Shown in pieces: positions 25,733 through 31,856 of a stretch of 64,000 bases of DNA. This DNA comes from SAR324 cluster bacterium (GTDB lineage Bacteria; SAR324; NAC60-12): the NCBI GenBank assembly GCA_015231825.1, contig JADGAV010000007.1, forward strand, positions 126,639-190,638, written 5' to 3'. Both the position numbers and the translations under genes were made by a program. The notes under the pieces are model-generated. The model did no database searches. It saw nothing but the letters and a program-made list of their open reading frames with translations, and was not told the origin of the DNA. The first letter of the stretch is position 1, and every line of letters begins with the position of its first letter.

Positions 25733-26050
25733 TCACCCGAGGCTCATCCAGACACAATCCGTCCAATCGAGTCCCATGTGAATCAAGAGCCCCAGGGCCA
25801 GCAATCGGCTGCGGGAATAGAGGGTCAGCAAGCAATAAATTGCTATTGCCCAATAAGAATGCAGCGGGTGAAAAGGGATGCTGCATCGATTCGGATCAAA
25901 AATCGGACTGGCCAGCAAATGGTCCAAATCAACCAGAATGGTTGCTCCCATGAGCACCCAGGCAAATACCCATCGATCTTTAAATGCAATGCGGGCCACC
26001 ACACCCGGAACTGTAAAATGCAGCAGCAAGTGAATAAACGGTCGCAGCAC
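25733..26050 (-). CDS. DUF6122 membrane protein
   Basis: A 105-residue protein of three to four hydrophobic helices. DLDHLLASPIFDPNRCSIPFHPLHS (read in two parts, about residues 40-64) and a later HMGLDWTDC form a His/Asp-rich pattern. I recall this from the DUF6122 family, whose function is unknown. The GTG at 26050 is preferred because GGAGTAAGG lies just upstream and the start MLRPFIHLLLHF fits the family. The frame itself extends to a TTG at 26074. It is 8 nt downstream of the EgtB-like gene and ends the selenoprotein operon. Confidence 0.7.
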   Translation of the reverse strand: MLRPFIHLLLHFTVPGVVARIAFKDRWVFAWVLMGATILVDLDHLLASPIFDPNRCSIPFHPLHSYWAIAIYCLLTLYSRSRLLALGLLIHMGLDWTDCVWMSLG

Positions 26051-26058
26051 TGAACACC

Positions 26059-27396
26059 TTACTCCAGGGCACAAGTACGAAATCCTGAAAAGATGTCGTT
26101 GCGGTGCGGAGGAAAAAAATTGCGATAGGAATTACAGGCCAAGCGGGATCGGGTAGGCCATGCCCCTCCTTTCAATACCTTGGGGTAGCCGAACCAGGGA
26201 GCCGAATACTCCACATAGGGAAAGTCTACAATGTAGCCGGGAAACGGGTAAAAAGGGCTTGCAGTCCATTCCCAAACGTTGCCGAGCATCTGACGGCAGC
26301 CAAATGCACTGTCGCCTGCGGGAAATGCTCCGACATCCACGGTTCCTGAAAACCTCCCGTCCAGATTGGCCCTTTCCGATGTGGGATGCTCGTCTCCCCA
26401 GGGGAACCTTCGTTTTTTTCCGGTAATTGTCTTGCCGTCAGAACTTGGTTCTGCGCTGGCCGCCATATCCCATTCAGCTTCCGTGGGAAGACGTCTCCCT
26501 GCCCAGCGGCAATATGCTTCAGCTTCATACCACGAAATGTGAGCAACCGGCGCATGGGAGGCAAGGGGAATCCAGCGATTGAAATGACGATGCAACCAAT
26601 CCCTCTCCCCACGAGCCCAGTAGACTGGACACTGCATTCCATTTTTGCTGCGCCATCGCCATCCTTGAGTGCTCCATAACTCGGGGCGCTTGTAACCATT
26701 ATCTTCTATAAAATCTTTAAATTCATCATTGCTTACGGCAGTCCGCGCAATTCTAAAAGAGGGAACTTCTATGGGGAATGCCCATTTTTCATTGTCAAAA
26801 ACAAAGGGGTTCTCGCGTGATGCTCCCAACTGGTAGTTTCCTCCGGGAACCTCAACATCTCCAGTCAAAGCAGTCTCTCCAGACAGTTCCAGAGGAGGAT
26901 TGCTTTCTGAATAACCGAACGACGGTTTTGGATATTTCAGAGTTTGACGCATCCAGGTAAACGCTTCACCATGCATGTCTTCATGGAAAACCGAGAGGAG
27001 GTAAATGTAAGTTTCTGCAGCGTCCGGCTCATGCGATCCCAAACGATCAATCACCATCAACCGGATTTGCTCCATATACGCTAAAGTTTCTTTTCTTGAA
27101 GGGAGCGGCAATCCCCATCGATCATCATGATCGATTTCAAATGAATTGTAGAAATCGTTTCCGTCTTCGGTGAGAGGAGGAATCTGGTCCAAAGTCTGTA
27201 AAAGCATGGCTTCATAAAAAAATGAAACGTGCCCCATTTCCCAGCGGAACGGGTTGACAATACCAAGCAAAGGAACATTCAATTGACTATCGTCCAGATC
27301 TGAGAGCAGATCCAGGGTACGCTGGTGAGCGTCATTGACCAAATGAATCAGCTCAGATGCTGGCAGTGTGAAGTGTTTATCCTCCAATTGTTTCAT
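26059..27396 (-). CDS. EgtB/SenA/OvoA-family non-haem iron sulfoxide (selenoxide) synthase
   Basis: A 445-residue two-domain protein. The N-terminal DinB-like four-helix domain has the three-His/Glu iron motif HX3HXE at His138-His142-Glu144 (HEDMHGE), with a likely further ligand His56 in MGHVSFFYE. The C-terminal domain (about 180-445) is FGE-sulfatase/SUMF1-like: WYEAEAYCRWAGRRLPTEAE, GNVWEWTASPFYP and the ending SYRNFFPPHRNDIFSGFR. Known members join a thiol or selenosugar to a histidine derivative using O2. Sequence alone does not decide between ergothioneine, selenoneine or ovothiol type. No egtD, senB or senC is in the window. It lies 9 nt after the methyltransferase gene. The start has a GAGAGGA RBS. 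Confidence 0.8.
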   Translation of the reverse strand: MKQLEDKHFTLPASELIHLVNDAHQRTLDLLSDLDDSQLNVPLLGIVNPFRWEMGHVSFFYEAMLLQTLDQIPPLTEDGNDFYNSFEIDHDDRWGLPLPSRKETLAYMEQIRLMVIDRLGSHEPDAAETYIYLLSVFHEDMHGEAFTWMRQTLKYPKPSFGYSESNPPLELSGETALTGDVEVPGGNYQLGASRENPFVFDNEKWAFPIEVPSFRIARTAVSNDEFKDFIEDNGYKRPELWSTQGWRWRSKNGMQCPVYWARGERDWLHRHFNRWIPLASHAPVAHISWYEAEAYCRWAGRRLPTEAEWDMAASAEPSSDGKTITGKKRRFPWGDEHPTSERANLDGRFSGTVDVGAFPAGDSAFGCRQMLGNVWEWTASPFYPFPGYIVDFPYVEYSAPWFGYPKVLKGGAWPTRSRLACNSYRNFFPPHRNDIFSGFRTCALE

Positions 27397-27404
27397 TTTT
27401 CCTC

Positions 27405-28061
27405 TCAGTATAGATGGGGGATCAGTTTATATTTTACGTGCTTTTTGTAGTCTGCATACTCTGTGGAATGCAGCAAAACTTCTTCTTCGTACCTGATCCT
27501 GAGTACAAACAGCAAGACAGCAATGGAGAAGATGATAAAATTTCCCAACGAAGGATGGGCAACGATGATTCCACTGTCCAATACAATATATGAAGCATAG
27601 ATCGGGTGGCGAATCAGGCGATACGCGGCAGAGGTTCGAACTCCTCGACAGACAGGAAGGATGCCGAAACATTTGCCCAGGGAGAGGGTCGAGGCAATTC
27701 CCATCAACCCGCCCAAGACTATCAGGAACTGGCCGAGTCCAACCATTTCTGATGCAGGATGCGGGTCGTAAAGCAGGTAGTAGTTGACTGAGGCGAGCGC
27801 CACAAAATAGGCAATTTTTGAAGAGGAATATTGAACAGGAGGGTTTCGAATTAAAAAAAGGAGGGCTGCGATACAATGAAGTAGAAACCAGAGTATCAAG
27901 GACAAATCAGGCGTCACTATAAATTCAGCAAAGGTCCCAAAGGCCATCGACAAGGCAACAACAGCCCAAAGAAATCCCATGTGTTTCTCATAATTCCTGA
28001 CTCTATCAAACACAGGGAATCTGACCTCAGAGCTAAATTTTGAATGCTGACACACGAGCAA
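27405..28061 (-). CDS. ICMT/PEMT-like membrane methyltransferase
   Basis: A polytopic protein of up to 218 residues with about five transmembrane helices. The C-terminal signature SAAYRLIRHPIYASYI (about residues 143-158) and the later RIRYEEEVLLHSTEYADYKKHVKYKLIP are characteristic of the ICMT/PEMT/NnrU-like SAM-dependent superfamily. The frame opens at a TTG (28061), and an ATG at 27980 (MGFLWAVV) is an alternative start. With the TTG start it sits 23 nt downstream of the TlpA-like selenoprotein and 8 nt upstream of the EgtB-like gene. Its substrate is unknown. Confidence 0.7.
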   Translation of the reverse strand: MLVCQHSKFSSEVRFPVFDRVRNYEKHMGFLWAVVALSMAFGTFAEFIVTPDLSLILWFLLHCIAALLFLIRNPPVQYSSSKIAYFVALASVNYYLLYDPHPASEMVGLGQFLIVLGGLMGIASTLSLGKCFGILPVCRGVRTSAAYRLIRHPIYASYIVLDSGIIVAHPSLGNFIIFSIAVLLFVLRIRYEEEVLLHSTEYADYKKHVKYKLIPHLY

Positions 28062-28084: not shown

Positions 28085-28645
28085 CTACTGAGAAATCGGT
28101 CGTTTTTTCAGAACTTCCATTCCCTGGATCGCATATTTGGCTTCGATATGGAAGTTATTGTAGCGGACTATTCCTTCTTTATCAATAATGACCACCCAGG
28201 GAGTACCGCCAGTGCGGTAGTTCTTCATCACCGGAGAAGGTTCTTCTTCCGTACCACTTTGACCTATGGGAATCTGCAGATCGTACTTTTTTGCTACTTG
28301 TTCGGTACCTCCAAACGTATTCACCTTGAACCCCTCAAATGCAGTTTGAACCGCGACAATTGCGACGTCCGGATCGTCTTTATAATATTTGATCATTTCC
28401 TGCAGGGTCGGAAATCCATGGGAATGGCAGGCGGGTCACCAGTTTTGGAAACAAAACAAATAGACCACCTTTCCTTTCAGATCCTGAATATCGATTGCCG
28501 TCTTTCCTGATGGGAGGTTTCTCCACTCTGTGACATGCAGAGAAGGAGCTGCCTGATTTAAAATTCCAGTTTCCTGTGCAAATAATCTGCTGCTGAAAAC
28601 GGTCAGGATTCCTGAAATCAGAGTCAAAATCACTAGGTTTTTCAT
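28085..28645 (-). CDS. Periplasmic TlpA/thioredoxin-like selenoprotein (UGA-encoded Sec at residue 70)
   Basis: The minus-strand frame runs 186 residues if the single in-frame TGA at 28438-28436 is read as selenocysteine. Residues 1-23 form a signal peptide (cleavage at LFA). The redoxin core follows: VVYLFCFQNW-U-PACHSHGFPTLQ, so Sec70 takes the place of the first Cys of a CxxC thioredoxin motif. Later features are a TlpA-like GGTPWVVIIDKEG (cis-Pro loop) and DDPDVAIVAVQTAFEG. The frame is intact on both sides and family similarity runs straight through the TGA. A SECIS-like hairpin lies 20 nt after the TGA. It probably acts as a periplasmic thiol/selenol oxidoreductase. The alternative, a Cys-to-stop nonsense mutation, is less likely. 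First gene of a four-gene operon. Confidence 0.8.
28395..28415 (-). promoter_or_regulatory. Putative bacterial SECIS hairpin downstream of the in-frame UGA
   Basis: On the transcript AUUUCC (nt 24-29 counting U of UGA as 1) pairs perfectly with GGAAAU (nt 39-44) around a 9-nt loop GACCCUGCA. The loop begins with G about 26 nt after the UGA. This meets the published bacterial SECIS pattern: a stem-loop 16-37 nt downstream with a G in the first two loop positions. The folding was done by eye. Confidence 0.6.
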
Positions 28646-30095: not shown

Positions 30096-31856
30096 TTAAT
30101 ACAATGATTTGTTTTTGAAAAAACGTAATATTTTTCGGAGCATCCACTGGAGCAGGAGCACCGCAATTGCGCCAAAAAAAGCTCCCACCAAGGGTCGGGC
30201 ATTGTATTCGGTGTCCCACCAGACACGGAAACGGCGATGCCATTCTTCCCACTGATTCAACTTGGCTTGCTGCAGGTTTCTTAACGTGAGGAGATATGCG
30301 GTCAATTGGTCTATCTCTTCCGCAGAAAGCCCCAATTGTGGCATTTGCGAATGCTGCACGTCAAAACGCGGTTCCGCAAGATGATGGCGAAGCCAATATT
30401 CGATTCTTTTTTCCCCTTCCAAGAGGCGCAATTCTGCACGGGTGCTTTGGTATTTGACATGAAGCGGCGTGGTCAATTGATCTACAAATTCCAGCTGCTG
30501 GTCATATTTTTCAGAAAAAAGTGACTCCTGCAGCCGATCGATCAAGCCGTCCAGTGGTGGTCCGGCTCGACCCCCAAATCCCGTGATCTGGTGACATCCC
30601 ACACAGCCTTTGGCATGAAACAGTTCTGATCCTGATAGAGATTTCGAATCGGGAATTTTTCCTTCTTCACGAATTAGTTTAAAGATCGACGTCTGGTTTT
30701 GCGGATCCGGAAAAAATCCGGAAAAATAAATCCCGTCGGGACCTTCTGCAATAGGGATCAGCATCTGCAGATAATTCCCACGAAAAGAAACCAGGGTTTG
30801 AGGATTGTCGATTAATCCTCTGCCTGCTTGAACCCGAAAGCTGTTGATGGTCACTCTCCCTTTTTGACTCGGTCCCGGAGTCTGAGGAGCTCCTCCCTGG
30901 GCAACCAAAATCCTGTGTTTCCAATATGGAAATTTGGTCTCTGCACCGAGAAAAATGGCCCCTGCCGGTCCGACGGACCCGCTCCAATTCCAGATGCTGT
31001 TGCCCCTCATACTGTCATTGGTGCCATCCCACAAATAGTTTTTCCCAGGCACTGCTTCTATCAGACGATCCCGATCCGGACCATTGTCTGTGATGTATAG
31101 TTGATCGTCGTCATCCAGGGTGATGGCAAAAGGATTACGCAATCCATAAGCAAAAATATAACTGCTGACTGATTCGGGATTCTGTCCGCTGTAATAGGGA
31201 TTGTCTTCAGGTGCAGAACCGTCCGGATTCATTCTCAGAATTTTTCCGTTGGGATTGTCCAAGCCCTGGGATTTGTGGTGCTGATGTCCATCTCCGACTC
31301 CGACAAACAATTTTCCATTTTTTCCAATCACACATTTCCCTATTTGATGAGAATTCGTCGATTCGTCTTTGTCAAAAATTCGTGTGAACTCGATCGATTT
31401 TTTGGGATTCACTGCAAAGCGTGTCGTTTCATGTTCAAAACGAACAATTTTGTTATAAAACGTGCTGTTTTTAAGATACGCAGTTGTTGCAAAAAGATAC
31501 CCTTTTCCAGAATCAAGACAGATCCCGGTCAAACCAACCTCGGCCAGTTCATTAGGAAGCTCTGTGGGTGGCCGGTAGGAATTTATTTTTTCTGCATAGG
31601 TGTAAACGGTGCGATCATTTGTTACCACCTTAATCGTACCACGAAGCTCTGAAACATAATACAGAGGGTCTTTGGGAAGGGAGCCGGGATTGGGGACAAA
31701 TGCGATTTCCACTGGAAATGACCAACCGGTATTTTCCAAAACAACGGTGTGGTCCTTAATAGCCACCCAATCTTTAGCGCCTTGAGCCTGCAGAGCAGAA
31801 AAACTCAGGGCGAGCAAGGACAGGAAGATCAGTATTCCTCTTTCAATTGTTTTCAT
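30096..31856 (-). CDS. PQQ/sorbosone-type sugar dehydrogenase fused to a cytochrome c domain, C-terminally anchored
   Basis: A 586-residue exported protein with a signal peptide (residues 1-26). Residues about 30-395 form a GSDH beta-propeller: ELRGTIKVV, LTGICLDSGKGYLF, GVGDGHQHHKS, FAYGLRNPFAITLD and ITDNGPDRDRL. The haem-binding CVGCH follows at about 418-422 in FHAKGCVGCHQITGFGGRAGPP. A C-terminal transmembrane helix (about 555-573) precedes a basic tail. It probably oxidises a sugar or aldose at the periplasmic face and passes electrons through its own haem. Whether it uses PQQ is inferred from the family. It lies 12 nt downstream of the GT39-like gene. Confidence 0.8.
   Translation of the reverse strand: MKTIERGILIFLSLLALSFSALQAQGAKDWVAIKDHTVVLENTGWSFPVEIAFVPNPGSLPKDPLYYVSELRGTIKVVTNDRTVYTYAEKINSYRPPTELPNELAEVGLTGICLDSGKGYLFATTAYLKNSTFYNKIVRFEHETTRFAVNPKKSIEFTRIFDKDESTNSHQIGKCVIGKNGKLFVGVGDGHQHHKSQGLDNPNGKILRMNPDGSAPEDNPYYSGQNPESVSSYIFAYGLRNPFAITLDDDDQLYITDNGPDRDRLIEAVPGKNYLWDGTNDSMRGNSIWNWSGSVGPAGAIFLGAETKFPYWKHRILVAQGGAPQTPGPSQKGRVTINSFRVQAGRGLIDNPQTLVSFRGNYLQMLIPIAEGPDGIYFSGFFPDPQNQTSIFKLIREEGKIPDSKSLSGSELFHAKGCVGCHQITGFGGRAGPPLDGLIDRLQESLFSEKYDQQLEFVDQLTTPLHVKYQSTRAELRLLEGEKRIEYWLRHHLAEPRFDVQHSQMPQLGLSAEEIDQLTAYLLTLRNLQQAKLNQWEEWHRRFRVWWDTEYNARPLVGAFFGAIAVLLLQWMLRKILRFFKNKSLY

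Follow-up and report, generated by a model that had tools for sequence, protein, structure and literature searches.

Selenoproteins with a UxxC motif are tabulated in a 2026 review under the domains cd02966 ("thiol-disulfide isomerase-like protein"), PF00578 and PF08534 (PMC13188914). A 2008 ocean survey likewise reports the UxxC families Trx-like 1 (COG0526; 321 sequences) and Prx-like 3 (pfam08534; 68 sequences) (PMC2398784). From the SAR324 cluster, two single cells were listed in 2016 with SelD and no known selenium trait ("orphan" SelD) (PMC5029168).

The window analyzed here, a stretch of 64,000 nucleotides from a SAR324 genome with a completeness of 93.5%, contains a frame of 186 codons with one in-frame TGA. 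We consider it highly likely that this gene encodes a signal-bearing UPAC selenoprotein, a ResA/TlpA/redoxin-type oxidoreductase, which is served by the genome's own selenocysteine (Sec) machinery, and that the gene probably belongs to one unit with senA and a methyltransferase-like gene. Of this joint reading, the sequence supports the exchange of TGA and Cys at the nucleophile position, the predicted thioredoxin fold, the Sec machinery and the senA cluster. The features of the locus, all on the minus strand, are as follows.

28085-28645, minus strand: gene for a predicted Sec-containing TlpA/redoxin-type protein, 186 codons plus a TAG stop (frame with a single TGA; Pfam; AlphaFold)
28577-28645, minus strand: signal-peptide-like N-terminus, residues 1-23 (MKNLVILTLISGILTVFSSRLFA), with a hydrophobic core and a putative cleavage site
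28436-28438, minus strand: TGA codon 70, very probably read as selenocysteine (U of UPAC); Cys or TGA in the family column, with three changes on the tree
28427-28429, minus strand: codon 73, the putative resolving Cys of UPAC, invariant in a 16-row alignment
28395-28415, minus strand: tentative SECIS hairpin AUUUCC-GACCCUGCA-GGAAAU, with its loop 26 nt 3' of the TGA (geometry fit)
28199-28204, minus strand: Thr148-Pro149 of GGTPW, invariant across the 16 aligned rows; we take it to be where the thioredoxin fold has its cis-Pro
27405-28061, minus strand: second in the cluster, a gene for an ICMT/PEMT-like membrane methyltransferase, starting at TTG 28061 or at the in-frame ATG 27980 (Pfam ICMT 24.4 bits, gathering score 24)
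26059-27396, minus strand: predicted SenA, selenoneine synthase of the EgtB superfamily (NCBIfam SenA 472.4 bits, cut-off 420)
25733-26074, minus strand: DUF6122 membrane protein, overlapping the end of senA (Pfam DUF6122 130.2 bits)

The initial annotation had given no strand for the redoxin-type gene, which is here placed on the minus strand, with an ATG start at 28645 and the terminal TAG at 28087-28085. Its description of an intact frame with a single TGA proved correct: the only TGA is codon 70 (28438-28436), and the frame has no second defect. The protein begins with MKNLVILTLISGILTVFSSRLFAQETG, displays the peptide FQNW-U-PACHSHGFPTL in its middle, as claimed, and carries NYRTGGTPWVVIID near its end. 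Read with translation table 11, the sole ORF listed 3' of the TGA in this frame comprises 103 amino acids (28396-28085), and a standard gene call would split the gene at this codon.

The senA cluster and the gene neighbourhoods of the family

The four genes follow one another in the order redoxin-type, methyltransferase-like, senA and DUF6122, with a spacing of 8 nt between the stop codon of the methyltransferase-like gene and the ATG of senA. The methyltransferase-like protein matched PEMT and NCBIfam models below their cut-offs. The product of 26059-27396 passed the EgtB-X signature (79.6 bits, cut-off 71) in addition to the SenA model, but failed the EgtB model (322.6 bits, cut-off 360). 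The reverse was observed for two EgtB controls, L057 and L165, which scored 567.9 and 566.8 bits with EgtB and 321.7 and 339.8 bits with SenA. An operon with an EgtB-type enzyme, as initially proposed, stands as an apparent operon with an EgtB-family gene, although the enzyme scores as SenA rather than EgtB and the methyltransferase-like gene lies in between. This result makes the gene context more selenium-specific. Ergothioneine synthesis by this neighbour was set aside, since its score is below the EgtB cut-off. The next-best match listed for the SenA model in the window genome reached 76.7 bits, as compared to 322-340 bits for the two controls, so that no second EgtB candidate was seen among the matches listed.

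EgtD makes hercynine, which SenA would combine with a selenosugar to give the antioxidant selenoneine, and a protein above the EgtD cut-off (321.2 bits) is encoded away from the cluster, as is SelD. SenB (405.5 bits, cut-off 300) is found on a different contig. Based on these model scores, the window genome has a full predicted selenoneine gene set, in which the neighbour at 26059-27396 is the predicted SenA selenoneine synthase and the partners SenB, SelD/SenC and EgtD are present. In view of the SenA and SenB genes of SAR324 relatives described below, selenoneine synthesis could be the missing selenium trait of the orphan-SelD SAR324 cells. Among the 78 genomes searched, SenA was above cut-off in nine, the window genome included. 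At six of the eight SenA loci besides that of the window, SenB adjoins, in one of the six together with SelD; SenB was not found within the short flanks of the remaining two, L156 and L161. SAR324 relatives with SenA beside SenB are represented by L157-L160, L163 and L164. The SenB motif is EGGANA in the window genome, and in the six adjoining SenB proteins it is EGGANV in four and EGGAHV in one, the sixth (L159) being cut before the motif. For characterised enzymes, the motif has been given as EGGAHV (PMC10891094).

That the redoxin-type gene and senA are neighbours by chance, without functional meaning, is a serious possibility to which we give somewhat less than an even chance. When the window SenA was searched by tblastn against the loci compared, this gene order was seen in the window genome only. 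The other SAR324 genome with the TGA has different neighbours, and the SenA genes of the relatives sit with SenB, both of which fit a chance arrangement. Yet the genes share a strand and are separated by short gaps, and both products use selenophosphate-derived selenium. Moreover, an EgtB-family gene is located near four other members of the redoxin family, all of them Cys relatives, at 155 bp in L057, where it is a true EgtB by its model scores, and at about 5 kb in L055, L119 and L137.

Our preferred reading is that the redoxin-type gene, the methyltransferase-like gene and senA probably form one transcription unit and would be co-expressed. The most interesting aspect of the locus is that a probable selenoprotein gene lies in a cluster with one for selenoneine, here in one genome only, and this link hints at possible shared control over the making of selenoproteins and selenoneine. 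The Sec enzyme and selenoneine would then be produced together, most simply for oxidant defence or repair. A dedicated oxidant-defence operon would go further: a single transcript would yield both an exported Sec reductase and the selenoneine synthase, and the reductase would take part in the chemistry of selenium or selenoneine, with oxidised selenoneine (diselenide) or oxidised envelope proteins as examples of what it might reduce. We consider such an operon unlikely; if true, it would couple the cell's two organic-selenium outputs.

The wider neighbourhoods of the family were surveyed at 83 loci, of which 53 had flanks of 3 kb or more on each side, the loci that supplied the queries being included. 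Genes for MsrA were found within 6 kb at 15 loci, MsrB at 14, SelO at 8, a DUF255 protein at 6 and an EgtB-family protein at 4. One or more of MsrA, MsrB and SelO occurred at 16 of the 83 loci, and, L078 being the one exception, these neighbours were confined to the family's other large branch. Queries for Msr, SelO, DUF255 and DsbD gave zero matches in the 64-kb window, and neither Msr nor SelO was found near the other three TGA genes, L058, L083 and L088, within downstream flanks of only 1.4 and 1.6 kb for the first two. The link to methionine repair is a feature of members with Cys and may not extend to those with Sec.

Several further observations were made in this survey. The order MsrA-SelO-redoxin-MsrB recurs at L055, L056, L119, L126 and L137, on Pseudomonas and Aeromonas plasmids and in Rubrivivax, and at L055 and L056 the redoxin gene is missing from the plasmid gene table. 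Thioredoxin-like DUF255 proteins lie near the Cys form at L061, L068, L069, L089, L116 and L125. Directly upstream of the Cys homologue L089 is a gene whose product combines a DsbD_TM and a thioredoxin domain, and a monothiol bacilliredoxin-like gene is found near the TGA carrier L088. In the window itself, 30096-31856 (minus strand) encodes a glucose/sorbosone dehydrogenase domain fused to a cytochrome c domain, with a C-terminal membrane helix as judged by eye.

Predicted fold, probable export and proposed reaction

The Redoxin (36.6 bits) and AhpC-TSA (34.8 bits) models of Pfam both matched above their gathering scores. An AlphaFold model built with 15 family rows had a mean pLDDT of 88.8 and a pTM of 0.82. 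The best Foldseek matches were 3eyt and 3lor, followed by DipZ and ResA, with TM scores normalised by target of 0.84-0.88 for 3eyt and 3lor. The same two structures were the best sequence-profile matches (7.5e-28 and 1.5e-24, respectively). Thus, the Pfam scores and the fold matches place the protein in the TlpA/ResA/redoxin group of the thioredoxin fold, in agreement with the original assignment. None of the four TGA members of the family reached the cut-off of an NCBIfam model. In the 16-row alignment, W69, U/C70, P71, C73, H74, G77, F78, P79 and G146-W150 (GGTPW) are invariant.

The N-terminus of the window protein contains a 12-residue hydrophobic core with a mean Kyte-Doolittle value of 2.56. 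All four TGA members have hydrophobic N-termini, with best 12-residue means of 2.17-2.85, as compared to 0.87 and 1.58 for the plasmid members L055 and L057, suggesting that the family probably has both exported and cytoplasmic branches. Of the signal peptide and periplasmic location that had been claimed, the export-like N-terminus was supported, and the signal-like N-terminus is what points to the periplasm.

A selenoprotein that acts as a Prx-like peroxidase, rather than as a thiol:disulfide reductase, would agree with Redoxin and AhpC-TSA being the top Pfam families and with the occurrence of some peroxiredoxin chains within the 50 best fold matches; Sec peroxiredoxins are also known (PMC13188914). 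However, the peroxiredoxin selenoproteins described there have the motif TxxU and the window protein has UxxC, and it is 3eyt, 3lor, ResA and tryparedoxin that lead the fold and profile matches. Peroxidase activity is for these reasons an improbable function, in our view.

For a thiol:disulfide oxidoreductase, the reaction may be pictured as follows. The UGA codon would be decoded by the genome's own Sec machinery, with Sec replacing the attacking Cys of the CxxC motif to give UPAC, and the protein would be exported by virtue of its signal-like N-terminus. The selenolate of Sec70 would attack a disulfide, or another oxidised sulfur or selenium group, in the cell envelope, and Cys73 would resolve the mixed selenosulfide. 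A DsbD/CcdA-type donor in the membrane could then re-reduce the resulting Se-S bond; the window genome encodes one candidate, a DsbD_TM protein whose open frame spans 672 amino acids.

Codon 70 as a probable selenocysteine codon

A search for close homologues covered 145 genomes, comprising the window genome and its relatives, and found one in three of these: the window genome, G010 (62% identical, likewise with one TGA) and G004 (56% identical, without a stop). Some match at E ≤ 0.001 was obtained in 61 of the 145 genomes, the best after the three close homologues having an E-value of 1.6e-11. A collection of species genomes was scanned with a query that begins 3' of codon 70, so that Cys members were not preferred over TGA members. 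The best 80 of 127 relatives, three plasmid relatives and the window together made up 84 rows; the G010 and G004 contigs (L058 and L061) are taken to occur also as L022 and L023, and each pair was counted once.

In the family alignment, which is continuous across codon 70, this column holds Cys in 80 of the 84 members and TGA in four. At the DNA level (82 rows), the codon is TGC in 47 rows, TGT in 31 and TGA in 4. The initial claims that the TGA falls on the first Cys of a CxxC-type site and that similarity extends to both sides of it are thereby supported. Besides the window, TGA occurs in L058 (SAR324), in L083 (Desulfobacterales) and in L088 (Krumholzibacteriia). In the maximum-likelihood tree, three changes between Cys and Sec, in either direction, are needed and are forced by well-supported branches. 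A census of 395 genomes from the phylum of G145 (E ≤ 1e-20) detected the family in G145 only, with zero further TGA cases. Among the plasmid relatives (201 records in all), the match had no annotated feature in 8 of the 10 records listed. Hidden TGA genes were considered for such unannotated relatives and rejected, as all three records examined, two of them unannotated, encode CPGC. Six distant thioredoxin-fold matches have one in-frame TGA each and are possible selenoproteins (G010:C29:4030-4449, G003:C197:103073-103387, G049:C49:7622-7924, G047:C30:26325-26777, G099:C20:48079-48237 and G083:C158:1886-2035).

Absence of selA, selB or selC had been named beforehand as a sign of a nonsense mutation, as had decay or a frameshift at codon 70 in homologues. 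Neither was observed: the homologues have Cys or TGA at this codon, and the window genome encodes tRNA-Sec (59.3 bits, cut-off 47; classified by ARAGORN as tRNA-SeC with anticodon tca), SelB (382.9 bits), SelA (538.8 bits) and SelD (379.4 bits), each above its cut-off. Its SelD gene also has an in-frame TGA, in KTCGUAAK (G000 C48:54834-55754; L020:1468-2559). In the other three TGA genomes, the search comprised tRNA-Sec and SelA, and both were above cut-off. The same holds for all six genomes searched for these two components, namely G010, G004 and those of L083, L088, L089 and L059, of which G004, L089 and L059 carry Cys homologues. The Sec machinery thus goes along with the TGA genes without dictating Sec at this position.

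The published bacterial SECIS model requires a loop of 3-9 nt with a G among the first two, a stem of 4-16 bp, a spacing of 16-37 nt and a minimum free energy of -7.5 kcal/mol or lower, and some bacterial elements deviate from it (PMC13188914). The hairpin at 28395-28415, with a 6-bp stem and a 9-nt loop starting with G, matches this geometry, and its energy is -4.0 kcal/mol alone and -7.3 kcal/mol with its neighbours. It is tentatively proposed as a SECIS element. The positive control, the selD hairpin of the same genome, is strongly SECIS-like at -12.3 kcal/mol. A scan with the published constraints found matches in two of the four TGA genes (L088 at -9.8 kcal/mol; none in L058 and L083), as compared to 43 of the 78 Cys genes, 13 of these at -7.5 kcal/mol or lower. 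A simpler hairpin scan over 82 genes ranked three of the TGA genes within the top 8 for energy, with no match in the fourth; it was dropped as support, since the constrained scan also matches 43 of the Cys genes. Plain downstream folds of the four TGA genes and ten Cys homologues, compared with shuffled sequences, gave unremarkable z-scores and no signal. Thus, by three approaches, no hairpin was found that distinguishes the window gene from its Cys homologues.

In one genome alone, a recent nonsense mutation would look alike, since a single base change turns TGC or TGT into TGA. A stop in place of the first Cys codon of a CxxC TlpA gene in decay, or a sequencing error at that codon, would account for the failure to find a clear SECIS. 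The restriction of close homologues to 3 of 145 genomes, which marks the gene as dispensable, points the same way. However, TGA stands at this codon in three further genomes, which represent three lineages, and all four TGA genomes contain tRNA-Sec and SelA. The frame has no other defect, and differences from L058 after the TGA fall mainly on third positions (26, 16 and 65 at codon positions 1, 2 and 3 of 112 codons; 27, 23 and 49 of 69 codons before it). The homology on both sides, the predominance of third-position differences and the Cys/TGA column show that the frame is more than a chance reading. The recurrent TGA, the three changes on the tree and the Sec machinery of the TGA genomes make a nonsense mutation very unlikely. 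Decoding of UGA as another residue, Trp or Cys, through an altered code or leaky termination would also keep the frame open, as would any code that gives TGA sense, but we dismiss it as extremely improbable, given that Sec machinery is present, that the site is Cys rather than Trp in the 80 non-TGA members and that the methyltransferase frame of the same cluster terminates with TGA just before senA. We conclude that the TGA of this gene from a marine SAR324 bacterium is very probably read as selenocysteine in a thioredoxin-like active site.

Comparison with described systems

The window protein resembles the described UxxC selenoproteins with cd02966, PF00578 and PF08534 domains in its fold group, in having Sec first in a CxxC-type motif and in being far outnumbered by its Cys homologues (PMC13188914, PMC2398784, PMC9312934). 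The listed families were compared with the subfamily UPxCHxHGFPTL...NYRTGGTPW at the level of domain and motif descriptions. Of the proposal of a new selenoprotein, Sec in a UxxC motif holds, and novelty at the family level does not, since UxxC proteins with such domains are in print. The predicted selenoprotein adds to these published UxxC thioredoxin-fold proteins, perhaps as a separate subfamily. It contributes a well-supported Sec/Cys pair to a redoxin subfamily that is spread over many phyla, in which the choice of Sec or Cys can be compared among orthologues and part of which adjoins methionine sulfoxide repair genes.

Among characterised or curated proteins, the likeness to 3eyt (SPOA0173) and 3lor (a thiol-disulfide isomerase of Corynebacterium glutamicum) is that of the best profile and fold matches, by fold and sequence alone. 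ResA, DsbE and TlpA (NCBIfam NF002854, TIGR00385 and NF047696) are likewise thioredoxin-fold thiol:disulfide oxidoreductases and are among the few NCBIfam matches. However, the redoxin-type protein scored below their cut-offs (47.5 of 170, 17.3 of 123.15 and 17.2 of 230 bits, respectively) and is not a member of these families as curated.

In the literature covered, outside of which lies the original Nature 2022 selenoneine paper, we found no description of senA in a cluster with a selenoprotein gene. The closest described counterpart of the cluster is the senA-senB-senC locus of Variovorax paradoxus (PMC9814287, PMC10891094). The window genome shares with it proteins that pass the SenA and SenB models, as well as SelD and EgtD. 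In contrast to that locus, senA of the window lies apart from senB and is clustered with a predicted selenoprotein gene and a methyltransferase-like gene.
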